From positions 1 to 64,000 of the forward strand of contig CAIUOG010000097.1 in the NCBI GenBank assembly GCA_903900705.1: DNA of 64,000 bases. The letters are read 5' to 3'. Origin of the DNA: an uncultured Acidobacteriia bacterium (lineage in GTDB: Bacteria > Acidobacteriota > Terriglobia > Bryobacterales > Bryobacteraceae). Shown piece by piece: positions 7,877-57,739 of the stretch; position 1 is the first letter of the stretch; each line of letters starts with the position of its first letter. The notes under the pieces were generated by a model that saw nothing but the letters and a program-made list of their open reading frames with translations, was not told where the DNA came from and searched no databases. The position numbers were made by a program, and so were the translations under genes.

Positions 7877-8299
7877 CGCGTCGAGTTTCGCGGCGTCCAG
7901 ACCGGGGACTTTCTTCAGGTCTTCAATCGACTTGAAGTCCCCGTTCTTCGTCCGGTACTCCACAATGGCCGCCGCCTGGGAGCGCTTCAGGCTCAGCGCG
8001 CTTTCGAGTTCAATCGCCATCGCCTTATTGACGTTCAGCTTCGGCACCGCGTCCGCCGGAAAGTTCTTCGCCAGGTAATCAACCACCGCGCGAATCTCGC
8101 TGTCCTTGCCGGACATGCCCAGCGACACCATCTTGTTCACGCTTTCCTGCCAGCCGGCGGCGTCCATCCGCTGACTGGTCACGCGTTCCACTTCATGGCA
8201 CTGGCTGCAAAGCTTCAGCGTCTCGTCCTTGCCCGGCCCATCCGGAAACTGGGCAAAGACGGGAAGCGCGGCCGCGGCCAGGAAAAGAATCAGCCGCAT
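7853..8299 (-). CDS. Periplasmic c-type cytochrome with ComEA-like helix-hairpin-helix tail
   Basis: A 148-residue exported protein. I chose the ATG at 8299: it opens a clean signal peptide (MRLILFLAAAALPVFAQ) and lies one base after the stop of the upstream propeller gene. A single haem c site is at residues 31-35 (CSQCH), and M62 or M66 (in the MVSLGMSG phrase) could give the distal ligand. From about residue 85 to the end there is a ComEA-type helix-hairpin-helix region (LNVNKAMAIELE, IVEYRTKNGDF, EDLKKVPGL). Tight coupling with the PQQ-type propeller suggests the cytochrome accepts electrons from that protein or a relative; this is inference. HhH repeats bind DNA in ComEA, but in many such cytochromes they may be only structural. 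Confidence 0.82.
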   Translation of the reverse strand: MRLILFLAAAALPVFAQFPDGPGKDETLKLCSQCHEVERVTSQRMDAAGWQESVNKMVSLGMSGKDSEIRAVVDYLAKNFPADAVPKLNVNKAMAIELESALSLKRSQAAAIVEYRTKNGDFKSIEDLKKVPGLDAAKLDAKKDRLTF

Positions 8300-8300
8300 C

Positions 8301-9764
8301 TTAGTGCTCAATCGGGAAACCAAACGCGTAGAGAGTGCCATCCTGAGTACCAAGGTACACGGCGCTGCCGCCCGCTGCCAGCCCGCTCACCTTCGAGATC
8401 GGCGACGTGATGGTCGCGCCGCTCGTGAAGACCTGCTTGCCAGTGGCGGCATCCACCGCCGAAAGCGTATTGCCGGCCGCCAGGAACACCACGCCGTTCA
8501 CCACAGCCACGGCTGTCGGCGACGCGCTGCCCGCCTTCCAGCCCGATTCGAGCGAAGCGCCATTCAGCTTCCAGGCATTCGCGCCACTCAGAATCCAGTT
8601 GGTTCCCGCCGCATCCGTCCATGCCGCCATCGCGCCCGCGCCCATCGCAGGCGCCGACGATGCCACTTTCGCCAGCGATGCCGCATCCAGCACATGCACC
8701 GAACCATCTTTCGCCGTCACCGCGACCCGCAACCCGGCCTTCGTATCGAACACCACCGGCGACGAAACCAGCGGCTGACCAGCCGGGAAGGAAGCCTTCT
8801 TCGCCAGCGTCTTCGCTTCGAGCGCAACCACGTCACCCGTCGAGGTGGAAACGTACACCACGCCGTCCGGACCGAACGCGGTCCCGATCGCCGCGCCGCT
8901 CCAGCTCGCCACCGTCTTCGTGGCAAGATCCAGAGCCCACACGCCATCGGCCACTCCGGAGCACTTGCCGGAAGTCACCACATAGGCCACGTTATCCACC
9001 ACAATCAGGTCGGAAGCGTTCGCCTTGCCCGGCAGAAACTTCACGGGCGGCTGCGGTTCTTCGCCGTTCGAAATATACATGTTGTGGAAGGCGCCGTCGC
9101 CGGAGAGCACCCGCAGGAAAGTGGGCATGCGACCCGGACGCGGAGGCGTCGCCGGATTGATGGTGCCCCGTCCACCCGCCGCCGCGCCGCGGCCCGCGTT
9201 CGGATTCATTGGGGGCTGCTGATTCGCCGCAGCCGCCGCGAGGGTCACCGCGCCTTCACCCGGCGCGCCCACACCAGACTTTGCCGGACCGCCGCGGCCA
9301 CCGCCGCCGCCACGCCCGCCACCACCGGTCATCGGGAGCGCCGAAGAAACATCGCGCGCCACGCTCGCCGTCATCCCGCCGCCGCACACGCCCGCGCCCG
9401 CCGTCACCGGGAAATGCTTCTTCCATTCCACCCGCGAAAGATCGGAATCGAAAACATACACATTGTTCGCCGCGCCACCCACAAACGCGTAGCTGCGGAA
9501 GCCGCGATAGCCGATATACCGGTCCATCAGCGTCGGCGCGGAAAGCGCATCACTGCCCGGTTTCGACTTCCACATGAACTGGAAGCCAGGCTTCTGCATG
9601 CTCGCCGCGGAGATCTTCGGGTCCGTGCGGACCCATGCGGATCGCTGCGCGTCGTTGCCAATGGTTGACCAGTCCGATCCACCGCGGCCCTGCGAAAACG
9701 CGGGGACGGCAAAGGCGACGAGGCCGAAAAAAATGGTGGCGCGGGTGAGGTGCGGGCGTTTCAT
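8301..9764 (-). CDS. Secreted PQQ-like beta-propeller protein
   Basis: A 487-residue exported protein with a signal peptide ([24 protein letters not shown]). It begins with [16 protein letters not shown], a phrase shared with the divergent gene at 9819, and carries WD/PQQ-type blades such as [31 protein letters not shown] and [15 protein letters not shown] Gly-rich low-complexity loop lies near residue 140. These repeats are typical of PQQ enzymes and BamB-like propellers; the full set of PQQ and calcium ligands cannot be confirmed by eye, so enzyme activity is uncertain. The cytochrome c gene follows after one base, consistent with a redox pair. A 54-bp intergenic region separates it from the divergent propeller gene. 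Confidence 0.78.
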
Positions 9765-51894: not shown

Positions 51895-52032
51895 CACCCG
51901 TCAGGTTAACCCGGAAACCCCGTTCCCGCCCCGCGCATCCATATGGTGCGTAAGCTGTGCGCACCCGGCCGCACCCTCGCGTCCCTACAACATTGCAAAG
52001 GCCCGCCCACCAGCGTGATATCGTCAAATCTT

Positions 52033-53712
52033 GTGAAAATACTGCGAATCCCGGCACTACTCGCCTGCTCGGCGGCCGCCTTCGGAGCGGGAGAAACCAC
52101 CCTCCTCGACACCATGAATCAGGAGCTCGTCCGCAACTTCCAGGCCCTGAAATCCAAGGCGGACACCACTCCGTATTTCCTCGCCTATGAGATCTCCGAT
52201 ATCGAATCTCACGAAGTGGGCGCGACTCTCGGCGTACTCAATTCGCAGGGCAACTCCCACAGCCGCTACCTCGACGTCACCGTTCGCGTGGGCGATCAGA
52301 AGCTCGACAACTACCGCCGCGTGCGTGGTGATCGTATCCAGTTCACCTCCGGCACCCCGGTCTCCATCGAAGACGTCCCCGCCGCCATCAAGCCCCGGCT
52401 CTGGCTCGAAACCGACCGCGTCTACCGCGCCGCCGCGGACCGCCTCATTCGCATCAAAACCAACCAGCAGGTCAAGGCCGCCGACCGCGACCAGTCCGCC
52501 GATTTCTCCAGCGAAGAATCCTACGCCCACACCGAACCGGTCTACAAAACCACCTTCGATGAAGCGAAATGGTCCGGCATGGCCCGCGAATGGTCCCGCG
52601 ATTTCCGCGCCTTCCCGGACCTGCTTTCCTCCTCCGTCTCCGTCTCCACCTCCGCCGACAACCGCTACTTCGTCAACACCGAAGGCACCAAAGTCGCCCA
52701 CGGCAGAGGCTTCGCCCGCATCGTGATCTCCGCCTCCGCCAAGGCCAAAGACGGCATGGACGTTTCCGACTTTGAAACGTTCGAAGCCTTCGAGCCCTCC
52801 GGCCTGCCCAGCGCCGAGGCCATCCACGCCGCCGTCAAAAAGGTCGGCCAGAACGTCGAAAATCTGCTCGTCGCGAAGTCCGCCGAGCCCTTTGTCGGCC
52901 CCGCCATCTTCTCCGGCCGCGCCTCCGGCGTCTTCTTCCATGAAATCTTCGGCCATCGCATCGAGGGCCACCGCCAGAAGGATGAGGCCGAAGGCCAGAC
53001 CTTCACCGCCAAAGTGGGCGAAAAGATCCTGCCGGACTTCCTCTCCGTCACCTTCGACCCCACACAGAAACAGGCCGCCGGCACAGACCTCAACGGCTGG
53101 TATGAGTACGATGACGAAGGCGTGCTCGGCAAGCCCGTCAAAGCCGTCGAAAACGGCGTCCTGAAGAGCTTCCTGATGTCGCGCTCGCCGATCGAAGGCT
53201 TTGACCATTCGAACGGTCACGGCCGCCGCCAACCCGGCCTCGAAGTCGTCTCCCGCCAGTCGAACCTGATCGTCAGCAGCACCAAAGCCGTGCCGTTTGA
53301 CCAGCTGCGGAAAATGCTCCTCGACGAAATCAAGCGCCAGAACAAGCCCTACGGTCTCTACTTCGACAACATCACCGGCGGCTTCACCACCACCCAGCGC
53401 GGCGGCTCCCAGAGCTTCAAAGTCATCCCGCTCATCGTCTACAAAATCTACGCCGATGGCCGCCCCGATGAACTCATTCGCGGCGCGGACCTCGTCGGCA
53501 CCCCGCTCGCCAGCTTCGCCAAGATCCTGGCCACCTCGGACAAACAGGAAGTCTTCAACGGCTACTGCGGCGCGGAATCCGGCAGCGTGCCGGTCTCCGC
53601 CGTCTCCCCCGCCATCCTCATCTCCGAAATGGAAATCGAGAAGAAGGATTCCGGGCAGGACCTGCTGCCCCTGCTTCCCTCCCCCCTGGCCGCCAAAGGA
53701 GATTCCAATTGA
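52033..53712 (+). CDS. Exported TldD-like metalloprotease
   Basis: A 559-residue protein. A GTG at 52033 opens a signal peptide (MKILRIPALLACSAAAFGAG); the ordinary TldD is cytoplasmic, so an exported form is unusual. The N-terminal half is a TldD/PmbA N-domain (LLDTMNQELVRNFQALK). The zinc site HEIFGHRIEG is at residues 303-312 (His303, Glu304, His308) and the third ligand is Cys512 in NGYCGAESGSVPV, so the protease looks active. C-terminal beta-strands (TLIVSS-like, LISEMEIEKKDSG) match the family. The next gene, a paralogue without zinc ligands, starts with a 4-base overlap. This mirrors TldD/TldE heterodimers, which cleave unfolded peptides and modified peptides such as microcins. Confidence 0.85.
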   Translation: MKILRIPALLACSAAAFGAGETTLLDTMNQELVRNFQALKSKADTTPYFLAYEISDIESHEVGATLGVLNSQGNSHSRYLDVTVRVGDQKLDNYRRVRGDRIQFTSGTPVSIEDVPAAIKPRLWLETDRVYRAAADRLIRIKTNQQVKAADRDQSADFSSEESYAHTEPVYKTTFDEAKWSGMAREWSRDFRAFPDLLSSSVSVSTSADNRYFVNTEGTKVAHGRGFARIVISASAKAKDGMDVSDFETFEAFEPSGLPSAEAIHAAVKKVGQNVENLLVAKSAEPFVGPAIFSGRASGVFFHEIFGHRIEGHRQKDEAEGQTFTAKVGEKILPDFLSVTFDPTQKQAAGTDLNGWYEYDDEGVLGKPVKAVENGVLKSFLMSRSPIEGFDHSNGHGRRQPGLEVVSRQSNLIVSSTKAVPFDQLRKMLLDEIKRQNKPYGLYFDNITGGFTTTQRGGSQSFKVIPLIVYKIYADGRPDELIRGADLVGTPLASFAKILATSDKQEVFNGYCGAESGSVPVSAVSPAILISEMEIEKKDSGQDLLPLLPSPLAAKGDSN

Positions 53713-55418
53713 ACCGCTTCTGCACTGCTTTTTTCTCGCTCGCGGTCCTGCTCTCCGCCGCCGACAATGACAAGGTCTTTGAGGCCATGAAAGCCGAGCT
53801 GAAACGCTCCTCCACCCTCAAACTCAACCAGCTCGAAACGCCCTACTTCGTCAGCTATTCCGTCGACGACGGCATCACCTACACCGCCACCGCCACCAAC
53901 GGCGGCATCATTTCCGCCAACACCGGCAAATTCCGCATTCCCGAAGTCCACATCCGCGTGGGCGATTACAAGTTCGACAACACCAACTACGCCGGCGGCG
54001 GCTTCGGCGGCGCGCGTTATGACCTGCGCAGCTTCCCGCTCGACGACGATCCGCTCGTCATCCGCCAGTACCTCTGGCTCGCCACCGATTCCGCCTATAA
54101 AGGCTCCCTCCAGCAGATCGCCCGCAAACGCGCCGCCCTCCGCAGCGTCACCGTCAACGAGCAACTGCCCGACTTCGCTCCCGCCCCGAAATTCACCCTC
54201 CTCCAGGACTTCAAACCCCTGACCTTTAACGCCGAAGCCTGGAAAGACCGCGTCCGCAAGTTATCAGCTGTTTTCAACGACTTCCCCGCCCTGCGCGCCT
54301 CGCTCGTCGAGTATTCCGCCATCGACGGCTACCACCGCTACGTCAGCACCGAGGGCACCGAAATCCGCAAGGGCGAAACCATCGGTTCCGTCCAGATCCG
54401 CGCCTCCGCGCAGGCGCCCGATGGCATGATCGTCCGCGATTCCGCCCTCTTCTACACCGGCGACGCCTCCAAAATGTTCCCCGAAGCCGAACTCATGAAG
54501 GCTGCCCGCACCGTCGGTGAACAGGCGCTCAAAATCGCCGCCGCACCCATGGGCGAGAACTATTCCGGGCCCATTCTCTTCGAAGGCGTGGCCGGCGCGC
54601 AGCTGATGGCGGAGATCCTGGGCCGCAACCTGCACATCGCCCGCAAGCCCGTCGCCCCCGCCGGTATGCCCAGCCAGGCCGCCTCCACCGAACTCGAAGG
54701 CCGCCGCGGCGTCCGCATCATGCCGGAATTCTTCGACGTAATCGACGACCCCACCAGGCCCCTCTTCGGCCAGGAAGTGGTGGACGACGAAGGCGTGCCC
54801 GACAAGACCGTCTCTCTGGTGGAAAAAGGCGTCCTCAAAGACTTTCTCCGCACCCGTGAACCGGTTCGCGGCTACACCGAATCCAATGGTCATGCGCGCC
54901 TCGCGGGAAGCCAGCCGGCGCCCACCAATCTCATCGTGACCGCAAAGGAAACCAGTTCGCTGGCCGATATCCGGAAGAAAATGATCGACCTCTGCCAGCA
55001 GCGCGGCCTCACCTACGCCATCGTGGTGAAGAAAATGGACTTCCCCTCCACCGCCGCCCTGGACGAAGCCCGCAAAATGATCGCGGGCGCGGGCGCGGGC
55101 CGCAGCGCCGTCAGCCAGCCACTGTACGTCTACAAACTCTTCCTCGATGGCCATGAGGAACTCATCCGCGGCGTCCGCCTGCGTGGCCTCAACGCCCGCT
55201 CGCTCAAGGACATTCTCGTCGCCGGCAATGACAGCGCGACCTTGAACTACATCGAAAACAACGCGCCCTTCGCGCTGCTGGGCTTTGGCGCGAGTTCCGC
55301 CGCCGTCTCCGTGGTCGCTCCGTCCGTGCTGATTGACGATCTGGAGCTGACAAAGATCGACGACGAACTGCCGAAGTTGCCCATCGTGCAGTCCCCGGCG
55401 CTCTCCGCTTCGAAATGA
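53709..55418 (+). CDS. Exported TldE/PmbA-like partner lacking zinc ligands
   Basis: A 569-residue paralogue of the preceding protein. The TTG at 53709 has a strong AAAGGAG site 7 bases upstream and a 4-base overlap with the TldD-like gene. Signal peptide: MNRFCTAFFSLAVLLSAADN. Where TldD has the HEIFGH site, this protein reads AEILGR (residues 301-306), so both zinc histidines are replaced by Ala and Arg. The region that carries Cys512 in the partner reads FALLGFGASSAAVSVVAPS, with no cysteine. It therefore looks like a non-catalytic TldE-type subunit for an exported heterodimer. Its stop overlaps the LptF-LptG ATG by 4 bases. Confidence 0.84.
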   Translation: MNRFCTAFFSLAVLLSAADNDKVFEAMKAELKRSSTLKLNQLETPYFVSYSVDDGITYTATATNGGIISANTGKFRIPEVHIRVGDYKFDNTNYAGGGFGGARYDLRSFPLDDDPLVIRQYLWLATDSAYKGSLQQIARKRAALRSVTVNEQLPDFAPAPKFTLLQDFKPLTFNAEAWKDRVRKLSAVFNDFPALRASLVEYSAIDGYHRYVSTEGTEIRKGETIGSVQIRASAQAPDGMIVRDSALFYTGDASKMFPEAELMKAARTVGEQALKIAAAPMGENYSGPILFEGVAGAQLMAEILGRNLHIARKPVAPAGMPSQAASTELEGRRGVRIMPEFFDVIDDPTRPLFGQEVVDDEGVPDKTVSLVEKGVLKDFLRTREPVRGYTESNGHARLAGSQPAPTNLIVTAKETSSLADIRKKMIDLCQQRGLTYAIVVKKMDFPSTAALDEARKMIAGAGAGRSAVSQPLYVYKLFLDGHEELIRGVRLRGLNARSLKDILVAGNDSATLNYIENNAPFALLGFGASSAAVSVVAPSVLIDDLELTKIDDELPKLPIVQSPALSASK

Positions 55419-57739
55419 AGATTCTCCACCGGTATGTGTTTCGCGAGATCCTCGTCAGTTCGTTCCTCGCGACGGCGCTTGCCACCTTCGTCATCTTCCT
55501 GCGCTTCGTCTCGCCCCTGATCGAACTCCTCGTCCGGTCAGGGGACGTGCCCATCTTCCTCGAACTCTGCGTGCTCGCCCTGCCGCCCGTGCTGCTGCTC
55601 AGCATCCCGTTCGGCGTTCTGGTCGGAATCCTCGTCGGCCTGGGCCGCATGTCCGGCGACAACGAACTGATCGCCATGCGCTCCGGCGGCGTCTCGTCCC
55701 GCGTCGTGGTTCCCCCGGTGGTCTTCTTCGCCACCCTCGCCATGCTCGTTTCCGGCCTGTGCGGCGTCTGGCTCAACCCGCTCGCCCTGCGCGCCCAGTA
55801 CAAACTCCGCAACAAGGTGGCCGCCGCGCAGGTCACCGCCGACGTGGTGCCGCAGGTCTTCCAGGAACAGTTCACCAACGACAATACGGTGCTCTACGTG
55901 AACGACGTGCTCTCCGGCGTGGGCCCCACCGTCTGGCGCGGCGTCTTTATCGCCGACCTCACCCCGCCCGCCGAGCGCAAAAACGGGCTCAAAAATCAGC
56001 CCATCGGGCCCAAAGTCACCCTCGCCCGCGAGGCCATCGCCGTCCCGGACCCCGTCAATCACCGCATCCAGCTCACCATGCTGGATCAAAGCGTCCACGA
56101 AGCCCCGTATCACACCCGCGCCCCGCGCGCCGCCACCGCTCTCACCCAGAATGAGCAGCAGCAGCAAAAGGCCAAGCCCTATAAGGAAATGTTCACCCGG
56201 GAACTGGTGAAATACCTGAAATCGGTGCCGAAGGGATCGCAGGAAAACATCGACGCGCGCGTGGAACTGCACGGCCGCTTCGCGCTGCCGGTCGCCTGCC
56301 TCATGCTCGCGCTGGTGGGCATCCCGCTGGGTTCGTCTTCCCGCCGCGGCGGCCGTTCCGCCGGCTACGTCTGGGCGATTCTGATCGCCTTCTTCTGCTA
56401 CTACCTCGCCTACGCCAGCCTCACCAACACCGCGTCCCGCTCCCACTCCATCTCCCCCGAACTCGCCTGCTGGCTGCCGGATCTCGTCTTCGGCCTCGCC
56501 GGCCTCGCCCTCGTCACCCGCATGGAAATGCCGGGCGACCGCGACCTCATTGGCGAAGTCCGCCTGGCCTTCACCGCCTTCTTCACCCGCCTCGCCGGCC
56601 AGGTCACCCGCAAAAGCAACGCCGCCGCGCAGCGCGGCATGGGTATCGTCATGTTCCAGCTGATGGACAGCTACGTCCTCTGGAACTTCCTCTTCTACTT
56701 CTTCCTCTGGCTGGCCGCCTTCGTCGCCATGACGGAGATCTACAACTTCTTCAACCTGCTGGGTGACATCGTCAAGAACCACGTGCCGCTGTCGAGGGTC
56801 ATCACCTACCACCTGTTCCTCACCCCGCTGCTGATCTACGACACCATGCCCATCGCGGTTCTGCTCGCCGTGCTCGTCACCTTCGGCGTCATGACCAAGA
56901 ACAACGAAGTCACCGCCTTCAAGGCCTGCGGCGTCAGCGTCCGCCGCCTGGGCATGCCCGTGCTTCTGATGAGCGCCGTGCTGAGCGGCGCGCTCTTCCT
57001 TGCCGATTACTCCTGGATCCCCCAGGCCAATCAGGTACAGGACGCCATCTATAACGAGATCAAGGGCCGCCCCGTCCAGACCTACCTGCATCCCAACCAG
57101 AAGTGGGTCATCCACAACTCCCGCATCTTCTACTACCGCGGCTACGACCCCTCGGAGAAGATGATGATCGAGCCCTTCGTCTTCGAGATCGATCCGAAGA
57201 CCTTCGCGCTCTCCCGCGAAATCATCGCCAACCGCGCCCGCTGGCAGACCAACATCCGGCAATGGGTCTGGGAACAGGGCAGCACCCGCGACATCGAAGG
57301 CGTCAACGAAAAGAACCTGGTCAACTTCACCGTCACCTCCTTCCCGGAGATCACCGAAGTGCCCGACGACTTCCTCATCGCCGTCAAGCAGAACCAGCAG
57401 ATGAACTACGACGAACTCGCCCAGTACGTCCGCTATCTCCAGGAGCGCGGCTTCGACACCGTCAAACTCCAGGTGCAGTACCACAAGAAGTTCGCCGTGC
57501 CGGTCTTCGCCCTCATCATGGCGCTGATTTCCGTGCCCTTCGGCTTCATGGTGGGCAACCGCGGCGCCATGGCCGGCATTGGCGTCAGCATCGCCATCGC
57601 CATGGCTTACATGGGCGTGGACCGCCTCTTCGAACAGATGGGCAACGTGAACTACCTGCCCGCCTCCGTCGCCGCGTGGACGCCCGACGCTCTATTCGCT
57701 CTCGCCGGAACCTACCTGCTGCTGCGCATGCGAAGCTGA
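55415..57739 (+). CDS. LptF-LptG fused permease of the LPS transporter
   Basis: A 774-residue inner-membrane protein that contains two YjgP/YjgQ (LptF/LptG) domains in one chain. The first, about residues 1-385, begins MKILHRYVFREILVSSFLATA and has the usual periplasmic beta-jellyroll (LREAIAVPDPVN-like) between membrane segments. The second starts at about 410 (MFQLMDSYVLWNFLFYFFLW) and has its own periplasmic domain (WVIHNSRIFYYRGYDPSEKM) and final TM bundle (PVFALIMALISVPFGFMVGN). Normally LptF and LptG are separate proteins of about 360 residues that extract LPS with the LptB ATPase. A joined pair fixes their 1:1 stoichiometry. LptB and the bridge proteins are not in the window. It is translationally coupled to the TldE-like gene. 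Confidence 0.87.
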   Translation: MKILHRYVFREILVSSFLATALATFVIFLRFVSPLIELLVRSGDVPIFLELCVLALPPVLLLSIPFGVLVGILVGLGRMSGDNELIAMRSGGVSSRVVVPPVVFFATLAMLVSGLCGVWLNPLALRAQYKLRNKVAAAQVTADVVPQVFQEQFTNDNTVLYVNDVLSGVGPTVWRGVFIADLTPPAERKNGLKNQPIGPKVTLAREAIAVPDPVNHRIQLTMLDQSVHEAPYHTRAPRAATALTQNEQQQQKAKPYKEMFTRELVKYLKSVPKGSQENIDARVELHGRFALPVACLMLALVGIPLGSSSRRGGRSAGYVWAILIAFFCYYLAYASLTNTASRSHSISPELACWLPDLVFGLAGLALVTRMEMPGDRDLIGEVRLAFTAFFTRLAGQVTRKSNAAAQRGMGIVMFQLMDSYVLWNFLFYFFLWLAAFVAMTEIYNFFNLLGDIVKNHVPLSRVITYHLFLTPLLIYDTMPIAVLLAVLVTFGVMTKNNEVTAFKACGVSVRRLGMPVLLMSAVLSGALFLADYSWIPQANQVQDAIYNEIKGRPVQTYLHPNQKWVIHNSRIFYYRGYDPSEKMMIEPFVFEIDPKTFALSREIIANRARWQTNIRQWVWEQGSTRDIEGVNEKNLVNFTVTSFPEITEVPDDFLIAVKQNQQMNYDELAQYVRYLQERGFDTVKLQVQYHKKFAVPVFALIMALISVPFGFMVGNRGAMAGIGVSIAIAMAYMGVDRLFEQMGNVNYLPASVAAWTPDALFALAGTYLLLRMRS

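Follow-up and report, generated by a model that had tools for sequence, protein, structure and literature searches.

What do two TldD-like genes with signal-peptide-like starts do directly upstream of the gene for the permease of the lipopolysaccharide (LPS) exporter? The question is raised by a 64,000-nucleotide stretch of contig CAIUOG010000097.1 (the window), which belongs to the 6.1-Mb genome of an uncultured acidobacterium (GenBank assembly GCA_903900705.1). Three genes follow one another on its + strand, TLD1 (52033..53712), TLD2 (53709..55418), and LptFG (55415..57739), and consecutive pairs share 4 bases each. LptFG codes for LptF and LptG, the inner-membrane permease pair of the LPS exporter, as one polypeptide of 774 residues. 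The TLD1 stop and the TLD2 start overlap in TTGA (53709..53712), with TTG as the start codon of TLD2, and the TLD2 stop and the LptFG start overlap in ATGA (55415..55418), with ATG as the start codon of LptFG. These coordinates and overlaps reproduce those given in a preliminary description of the same DNA. We infer that the sampled family f1 is Bryobacteraceae and that the phylum is Acidobacteriota.

For E. coli it is reported that only TldD binds metal and that activity needs both subunits (PMC5810440). On balance, the answer that we favor for the window is that TLD1 and TLD2 form a Sec-exported, periplasmic heterodimer, a zinc-dependent oligopeptidase of the TldD/TldE fold, and that the pair is co-expressed with LptFG in Bryobacteraceae.

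The metal-site residues are found in one of the two proteins

In TLD1, residues His303, Glu304, His308, and Cys512 align with His262, Glu263, His267, and Cys454 of E. coli TldD. The HExxxH motif and the cysteine are kept in all 59 aligned TLD1 sequences (alignment A3, the window protein with 58 of 77 TLD1 homologues), whereas HExxxH and the CGAES motif occur in none of the 60 aligned TLD2 sequences (alignment A4, the window protein with 59 of 74 TLD2 homologues). In an earlier set, the zinc-ligand motif was present in 28 of 29 TLD1-like frames and in none of 31 TLD2-like frames. From the ligand residues, TLD1 is predicted to carry the metal site, and TLD2 would be its zinc-less counterpart. 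Arg309, Arg314, and Glu515 of TLD1 are likewise kept in 59 of 59 sequences.

In the columns of the metal site, TLD2 has Ala301, Glu302, and Arg306, with no matching cysteine. The preliminary description had named the ligands of the first protein and the replacements Ala301 and Arg306 in the second exactly, and it was right about the lost ligands, but the Glu302 retained at the same site went unmentioned. A glutamate is present at this position in 26 of the 60 sequences. It had also been considered that a better alignment might restore the zinc ligands of the second protein. This is ruled out, as HExxxH is found nowhere in any of the 60 TLD2 sequences.

After the N-terminal region, TLD1 holds only one cysteine in 45 of 79 homologues, and in the window this is the ligand Cys512. 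This lends the proposed exported peptidase weak support; as a counterpoint, the cytosolic E. coli TldD has only two cysteines. One TLD1-like paralogue (L069:3436-5127) is nested in the TLD1 group and has no HExxxH, a further loss of the metal site.

TLD1 and TLD2 share the TldD/TldE fold

Both proteins match the C-terminal domain of the family, PF19289, with 93.1 bits for TLD1 and 64.9 bits for TLD2 against a curated cut-off of 22. The N-terminal domain, PF01523, gave no match for either protein at an E value of 0.001, and a search of the window genome with this model gave matches only on contigs C134 and C33. Because the fold match described below covers the N-terminal part too, the miss looks like divergence of the domain and not its absence. 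The cut-offs of the TldD equivalogs were not reached: TLD1 scored 91.9 of 635 bits with NF040952 and 42.6 of 513 bits with NF008006, and TLD2 scored 51.6 of 635.

AlphaFold2 models were obtained with a predicted local distance difference test (pLDDT) score of 90.2 and a predicted template modeling (pTM) score of 0.89 for TLD1, using an alignment of 59 sequences, and with a pLDDT of 88.6 and a pTM of 0.87 for TLD2, using 60 sequences. Foldseek returned the same 16 TldD/TldE-family chains for either model at E < 1e-17 and nothing else below 0.001. In VIA-align, where the E. coli TldD and TldE chains were distinguished by length, TLD1 superimposes on the TldD chain 5njf_C with a Z score of 30.8 and a root mean square deviation (rmsd) of 3.4 over 444 residues, and on the TldE chain with a Z score of 25.7 and an rmsd of 3.5 over 428 residues. 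TLD2 superimposes on the TldD chain 5nj5_C with a Z score of 31.9 (rmsd 3.6, 430 residues) and on the TldE chain with 26.2 (rmsd 3.3, 417 residues). All TldE/PmbA-type entries lie between 23.7 and 27.5 for TLD1 and between 24.2 and 27.2 for TLD2, and the next unrelated structures score 6.1 and 6.4, respectively.

The N termini are signal-peptide-like

The N-terminal sequences, MKILRIPALLACSAAAFGAGE for TLD1 and MNRFCTAFFSLAVLLSAAD for TLD2, resemble signal peptides over residues ~1-20 and ~1-18, respectively. To compare homologues, a home-made test was used that scores hydrophobicity in 12-residue windows ahead of the conserved core, with a threshold of 1.6; its strict form also demands a lysine or arginine and a start codon no more than 22 residues away. 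The hydrophobic window is present in 76 of 77 TLD1 and 68 of 73 TLD2 homologues, and the strict form is passed by 69 of 77 and 61 of 73. Among 14 canonical or third-type TldD/TldE sequences, the highest hydrophobicity value is 1.43, so that none reaches the threshold; the test is blind to twin-arginine translocation (Tat) signals, and one of these 14 has a Tat-like start. The letters of the N termini diverge among homologues, and the hydrophobic run, mostly behind a charged start, persists. As judged by eye, it is often followed by an Ala-rich end. Both N termini look like Sec signals, and the proteins are likely to be exported.

The hydrophobic N termini might instead be anchors or the result of mis-called starts, so that the proteins would be cytoplasmic or would face inward from the inner membrane. 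The start of TLD1 used here is a GTG, the choice of the preliminary description; if translation began at the in-frame ATG further upstream, at 51943, the hydrophobic stretch would lie inside the protein. We regard this explanation as improbable, because the stretch stands before the conserved core in nearly all homologues of both proteins, across several phyla and often with the Ala-rich end, and the canonical proteins lack it.

At G000:C33:118766-120868 (L076:6767-8344 and 8157-8867), the window genome has a third TldD-type gene that codes for a Tat-like N terminus, MLNRRHFIAATAATLGGNLFAAPA, a label of our own, and has an aspartate at the position of the cysteine ligand. Its partner has no signal-like start, which would suggest export as a hitch-hiker. 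The partner gene is apparently split by a contig break and continues on C24 (L078:2-1006), as the end of C33 and the start of C24 share residues.

TLD1 and TLD2 occur as a pair

A match to TLD1 at an E value of 1e-60 was obtained in 46 of 297 genomes of an even sample of the phylum, including 24 of the 30 listed under one family that belongs to the same class. Two adjacent matches are present in 43 of these 46 genomes. Outside the phylum, a match was obtained in 16 of 199 genomes of the phylum to which a Phycisphaerae locus belongs, the seed included; nine of these have two or more matches and seven have one lower-scoring match. In the phylum of a Verrucomicrobia locus, only the seed genome matched (1 of 240). 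One set of loci of relatives comprises the best 80 of a search and is biased to close relatives.

Two natural fusions join the proteins. In G057:C5, TLD1 and TLD2 form a single polypeptide of 1284 residues (L057:5108-8959), and in G609:C144, from the Planctomycetota sample, the single frame has 1579 residues (L172:1233-5969). Each has one hydrophobic stretch, which lies at the start of the TLD1 half (values of 2.72 and 2.20); the junction, at 0.32 and 0.66, has none. That two phyla have such a fusion, with a single signal-like start in each case, suggests that TLD1 and TLD2 function as a pair.

Solo TLD2 paralogues are present in genomes of the same genus (L070, L071, and L072) and are 58 to 60% identical to TLD2 of the window. 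Two of the seven Planctomycetota genomes with a single match hold solo TldD-like genes, L173 (G691:C57) and L174 (G623:C26). Like TLD1, to which they are ~30% identical, these have HExxxH and CGAESG, but they lack a signal-like N terminus, and no partner frame was found in the 7-kb stretches around them. They fall outside TLD1 and TLD2 in a quick tree, where long branches call for caution, and may represent an outgroup of the TLD1-TLD2 pair.

A probable separate origin of the zinc-less partner

The window genome also encodes ordinary cytosolic TldD and TldE, at G000:C134, with identities of 52.6% (TldD) and 39.6% (TldE) to their E. coli counterparts. As this canonical pair is present, the pair in the window is not a relocated or displaced housekeeping copy. 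The two pairs belong to the same superfamily and have the same two-gene arrangement; the canonical proteins differ in having no hydrophobic N terminus and, in a joint alignment, in being only 17 to 19% identical to TLD1 or TLD2, which are themselves 30.2% identical to each other.

In an unrooted tree of 56 sequences, the exported-type proteins and canonical TldD plus TldE are split with support of 100/100. TLD2 forms a group at 100/99, and TLD1, with L069 included, at 92/88. A constraint that joins TLD1 with TldD and TLD2 with TldE is 63 log-likelihood units worse (approximately unbiased (AU) test, p 6.4e-5), a grouping that was named after the tree had been seen and a tree that is unrooted with long branches. 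The trees hold 56 and 60 hand-picked sequences, and L165_thE, a long branch, and L069 were dropped from the quick tree.

Its position as sister to TLD1, the AU test, and a fold nearer to TldD all speak against TLD2 as an orthologue of TldE. The preliminary description had proposed an exported analogue of TldD/TldE. The pair does have the TldD/TldE fold, but the tree, the AU test, and the fold scores make both subunits TldD-type sisters, and the ordinary TldD and TldE are kept besides. A review describes TldE itself as presumably derived from TldD through loss of catalytic residues (PMC10885120). From the sequence comparisons, the zinc-less partner TLD2 probably arose apart from TldE. The straightforward interpretation is that a TldD-type gene was duplicated within the exported branch and gave it a metal-less partner of its own, by the route proposed for TldE. 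The evidence on this origin is strong but not final; gene conversion between neighbors could mimic the sisterhood of TLD1 and TLD2.

LptF and LptG are fused in nearly all sampled Acidobacteriota

The third protein passes the equivalog cut-offs of both TIGR04407 (302 bits, cut-off 230) and TIGR04408 (309.9 bits, cut-off 240). In this respect its halves are like LptF and LptG that occur as two proteins, but here they form one polypeptide; separate LptF and LptG frames were found in 10 genomes of other phyla. Among 80 evenly drawn acidobacterial genomes, 79 have LptF/LptG, and in all 73 for which both halves are listed they share a single reading frame, 737 to 987 residues long; this count was made by hand, and the other six of the 79 are one genus with incomplete rows. 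All 44 genomes with a hit in a second, overlapping sample of the phylum agree. One genome has two complete LptF-LptG fusion genes (G076:C163 and C134).

A 2022 paper describes lptF and lptG as apparently lacking in Acidobacteria (PMC8871954). The near phylum-wide fusion offers a simple possible reason for this reported absence; our guess is that a fused gene escaped an ortholog pipeline.

The link between the pair and LptFG is confined to one family

The TLD2-LptFG junction is intact in 32 of the 35 genomes of family f1 that carry the pair or part of it. This was counted by hand and includes G035, with TLD2 only on a short contig, and G003, G009, and G013, in which TLD1 (G003) or part of the pair lies on other contigs. 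In two of the three exceptions, G005 and G024, the genes are on different contigs, and the third, G021, has no LptF/LptG match. When named loci are considered, the junction is present in 60 of the 64 acidobacterial loci with enough room. Of the other four, L100, L117, and L124 hold the pair but lack the junction, and L139 is without TLD2. LptFG is encoded elsewhere in the genomes of L100, L117, and L124, and L100 nests in the family's own branch of the tree, which fits the loss of a former link.

In 77 of 102 homologous TLD1-TLD2 gene pairs, the start codon is placed for a 4-base overlap. No more than 30 bases separate the TLD2 stop from an LptFG start codon in 64 of 73 loci, and in 10 the two overlap by 4 bases; these numbers include some contigs twice, as L041-L053 partly repeat contigs of L081-L160. 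A promoter scan found 0 sites, against 1.1 expected.

Outside the family the junction was not found. Other acidobacterial families are represented by 58 genomes with TLD1 (12 of family f3, G057, G058, G060, and 43 from the phylum sample), and by a hand count not one has the junction; among them, G051 has a partial TLD1, G093 and G124 have a single match, G350 has no LptF/LptG match, and a few links may hide at assembly breaks. It is also absent from all 11 loci of other phyla with room for it, which come from 10 genomes since L150 and L160 are from one. Conversely, two genomes of family f1, G026 and G032, have LptFG without a match to the pair within 14 kb around it.

These counts bear on whether the pair serves LPS export directly, for instance by keeping the Lpt bridge free of peptides and misfolded proteins or through control of the amount of LptFG. 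The conserved junction within the family and among the named acidobacterial loci, and the short distance to the LptFG start, would agree with such a task, and the window genome does have LptD (G000:C22:43678-44781), with only 60.8 bits to PF04453. With the link lacking in the other acidobacterial families and other phyla sampled, a functional tie to LPS export is not supported, and a general link is rejected. Together with the loci in which either the pair or LptFG occurs without the other, this makes a direct role in LPS export quite unlikely. The gene order is real and conserved in one family, and it supports co-expression, not a role in LPS transport.

The preliminary description stands in its core, a probably exported pair with the metal site in one subunit and in one operon-like unit with an LptF-LptG fusion, the order being kept in relatives. 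The gene order is kept within one family and not beyond it, and the tie to LPS transport that the description drew is not supported.

Neighboring genes

Upstream of TLD1 in the window, a carbon-nitrogen hydrolase and a U32 peptidase are encoded on the other strand, and glycosyltransferase-like genes follow LptFG, also on the other strand. In part of the family, a LuxR-type regulator-like gene stands directly before TLD1 on the same strand (for example, L123:7924-8922, L117:7886-8752, and L100:8270-8917); in the window this position is taken instead by the carbon-nitrogen hydrolase. A connection with amino-acid uptake was considered, as a Peripla_BP_6 gene lies downstream in L155 and L158 and an M1 peptidase is near the pair in L054; these are three loci and were not counted as evidence. 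In E. coli, tldD adjoins yhdP, annotated as a phospholipid transport factor (L161:4584-10259), a parallel to the position of the pair beside LptFG.

Discussion

By analogy with the E. coli enzyme, the favored exported zinc peptidase may work as follows. Once exported and folded, the two proteins would assemble into a shell in which the metal sits on the inner surface of TLD1 and TLD2 completes the wall around the active site. Short or unfolded peptides would enter through a narrow pore and be cut with little sequence preference, as by E. coli TldD/E, so that the pair may clear or recycle peptides of the envelope. TLD2 would have arisen, independently of TldE, as a zinc-less duplicate of a TldD-type subunit. 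Among Bryobacteraceae, the pair would have become the upstream part of a transcription unit with LptFG, presumably read as a single transcript; this would mean co-expression and probably not a shared task.

E. coli TldD/TldE (MEROPS M103; PDB 5NJ5 and relatives) are alike in fold, in the HExxxH motif and remote cysteine of one subunit, and in the two-subunit logic. The pair differs from them by its signal-like N termini, by the missing PF01523 match, and by its signatures, which read HExxxHRxEGHR and CGAES where E. coli has HExxxHGLEGD and CGKE. In fold scores, both of its subunits are nearer to TldD than to TldE-type chains, and its genes adjoin and overlap, whereas those of E. coli are ~1 Mb apart.

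Several observations weigh against an exported peptidase that always acts as a pair. The strict signal test is failed by 8 of 77 TLD1 and 12 of 73 TLD2 homologues. At L139:8-1495, TLD1, with its 5' end cut by the contig, is followed by 7.2 kb without TLD2 or LptFG, the solo TLD2 paralogues of L070-L072 have no TLD1 in the stretches covered, and the L069 paralogue is without the zinc site; the pair is thus not unbreakable. The TLD1 side of the tree (92/88) is less firm than the TLD2 side (100/99). A crude survey of neighbors outside Bryobacteraceae, in which clustering mostly gave antisense frames of the same genes, found no gene recurring enough to point to a substrate.

The clamp of E. coli TldD adds a further point. 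In the E. coli enzyme, a salt bridge between Lys456 and Glu270/Asp272 is described as the tether of the clamp (PMC5810440). In TLD1 the corresponding residues are Ala514, Glu311, and His313, so that the salt bridge is not kept, and substrate handling may differ. N-Deacetylase activity is known in the TldD family, with a lincosamide example, and peptidase activity of the pair is therefore not certain. PMC10885120 cites Vobruba 2022, the title of which points to such enzymes. The pair might accordingly be an exported amidohydrolase or N-deacetylase that acts on small molecules or cell-wall fragments, for which the altered clamp tether would also speak. We consider this unlikely, as HExxxH and the cysteine, with the catalytic glutamate, are kept throughout the aligned TLD1 sequences, and no biosynthetic cluster is found among the 30 flanking genes annotated. 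An exported peptidase of the TldD/TldE fold is still the reading that we prefer.

Among the titles and opening lines of abstracts searched in the open-licence part of PubMed Central, none dealt with an exported TldD/TldE pair or with an acidobacterial LptF-LptG fusion. Peptidase U62 is an old name of the TldD family. The closest pointer to an exported member is a "Peptidase U62", MXAN_2519, tabulated among the outer-membrane-vesicle proteins of Myxococcus xanthus (PMC4158809), which may be a relative of TLD1.

More tentatively, the pair may represent an unrecognized periplasmic branch of TldD/TldE in which a catalytically dead partner evolved again, independent of TldE. Its subunits would cross the membrane as two Sec substrates and, in some lineages, as one fused chain, and in Bryobacteraceae it would be wired to the fused LPS permease and help there to clear peptides from the envelope. 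We hold this wider picture as possible, with rather less confidence than the exported peptidase itself. If true, the requirement for a dead partner would be intrinsic to the fold instead of a historical accident, and a shell-type peptidase would be added to the periplasm of a widespread soil phylum.

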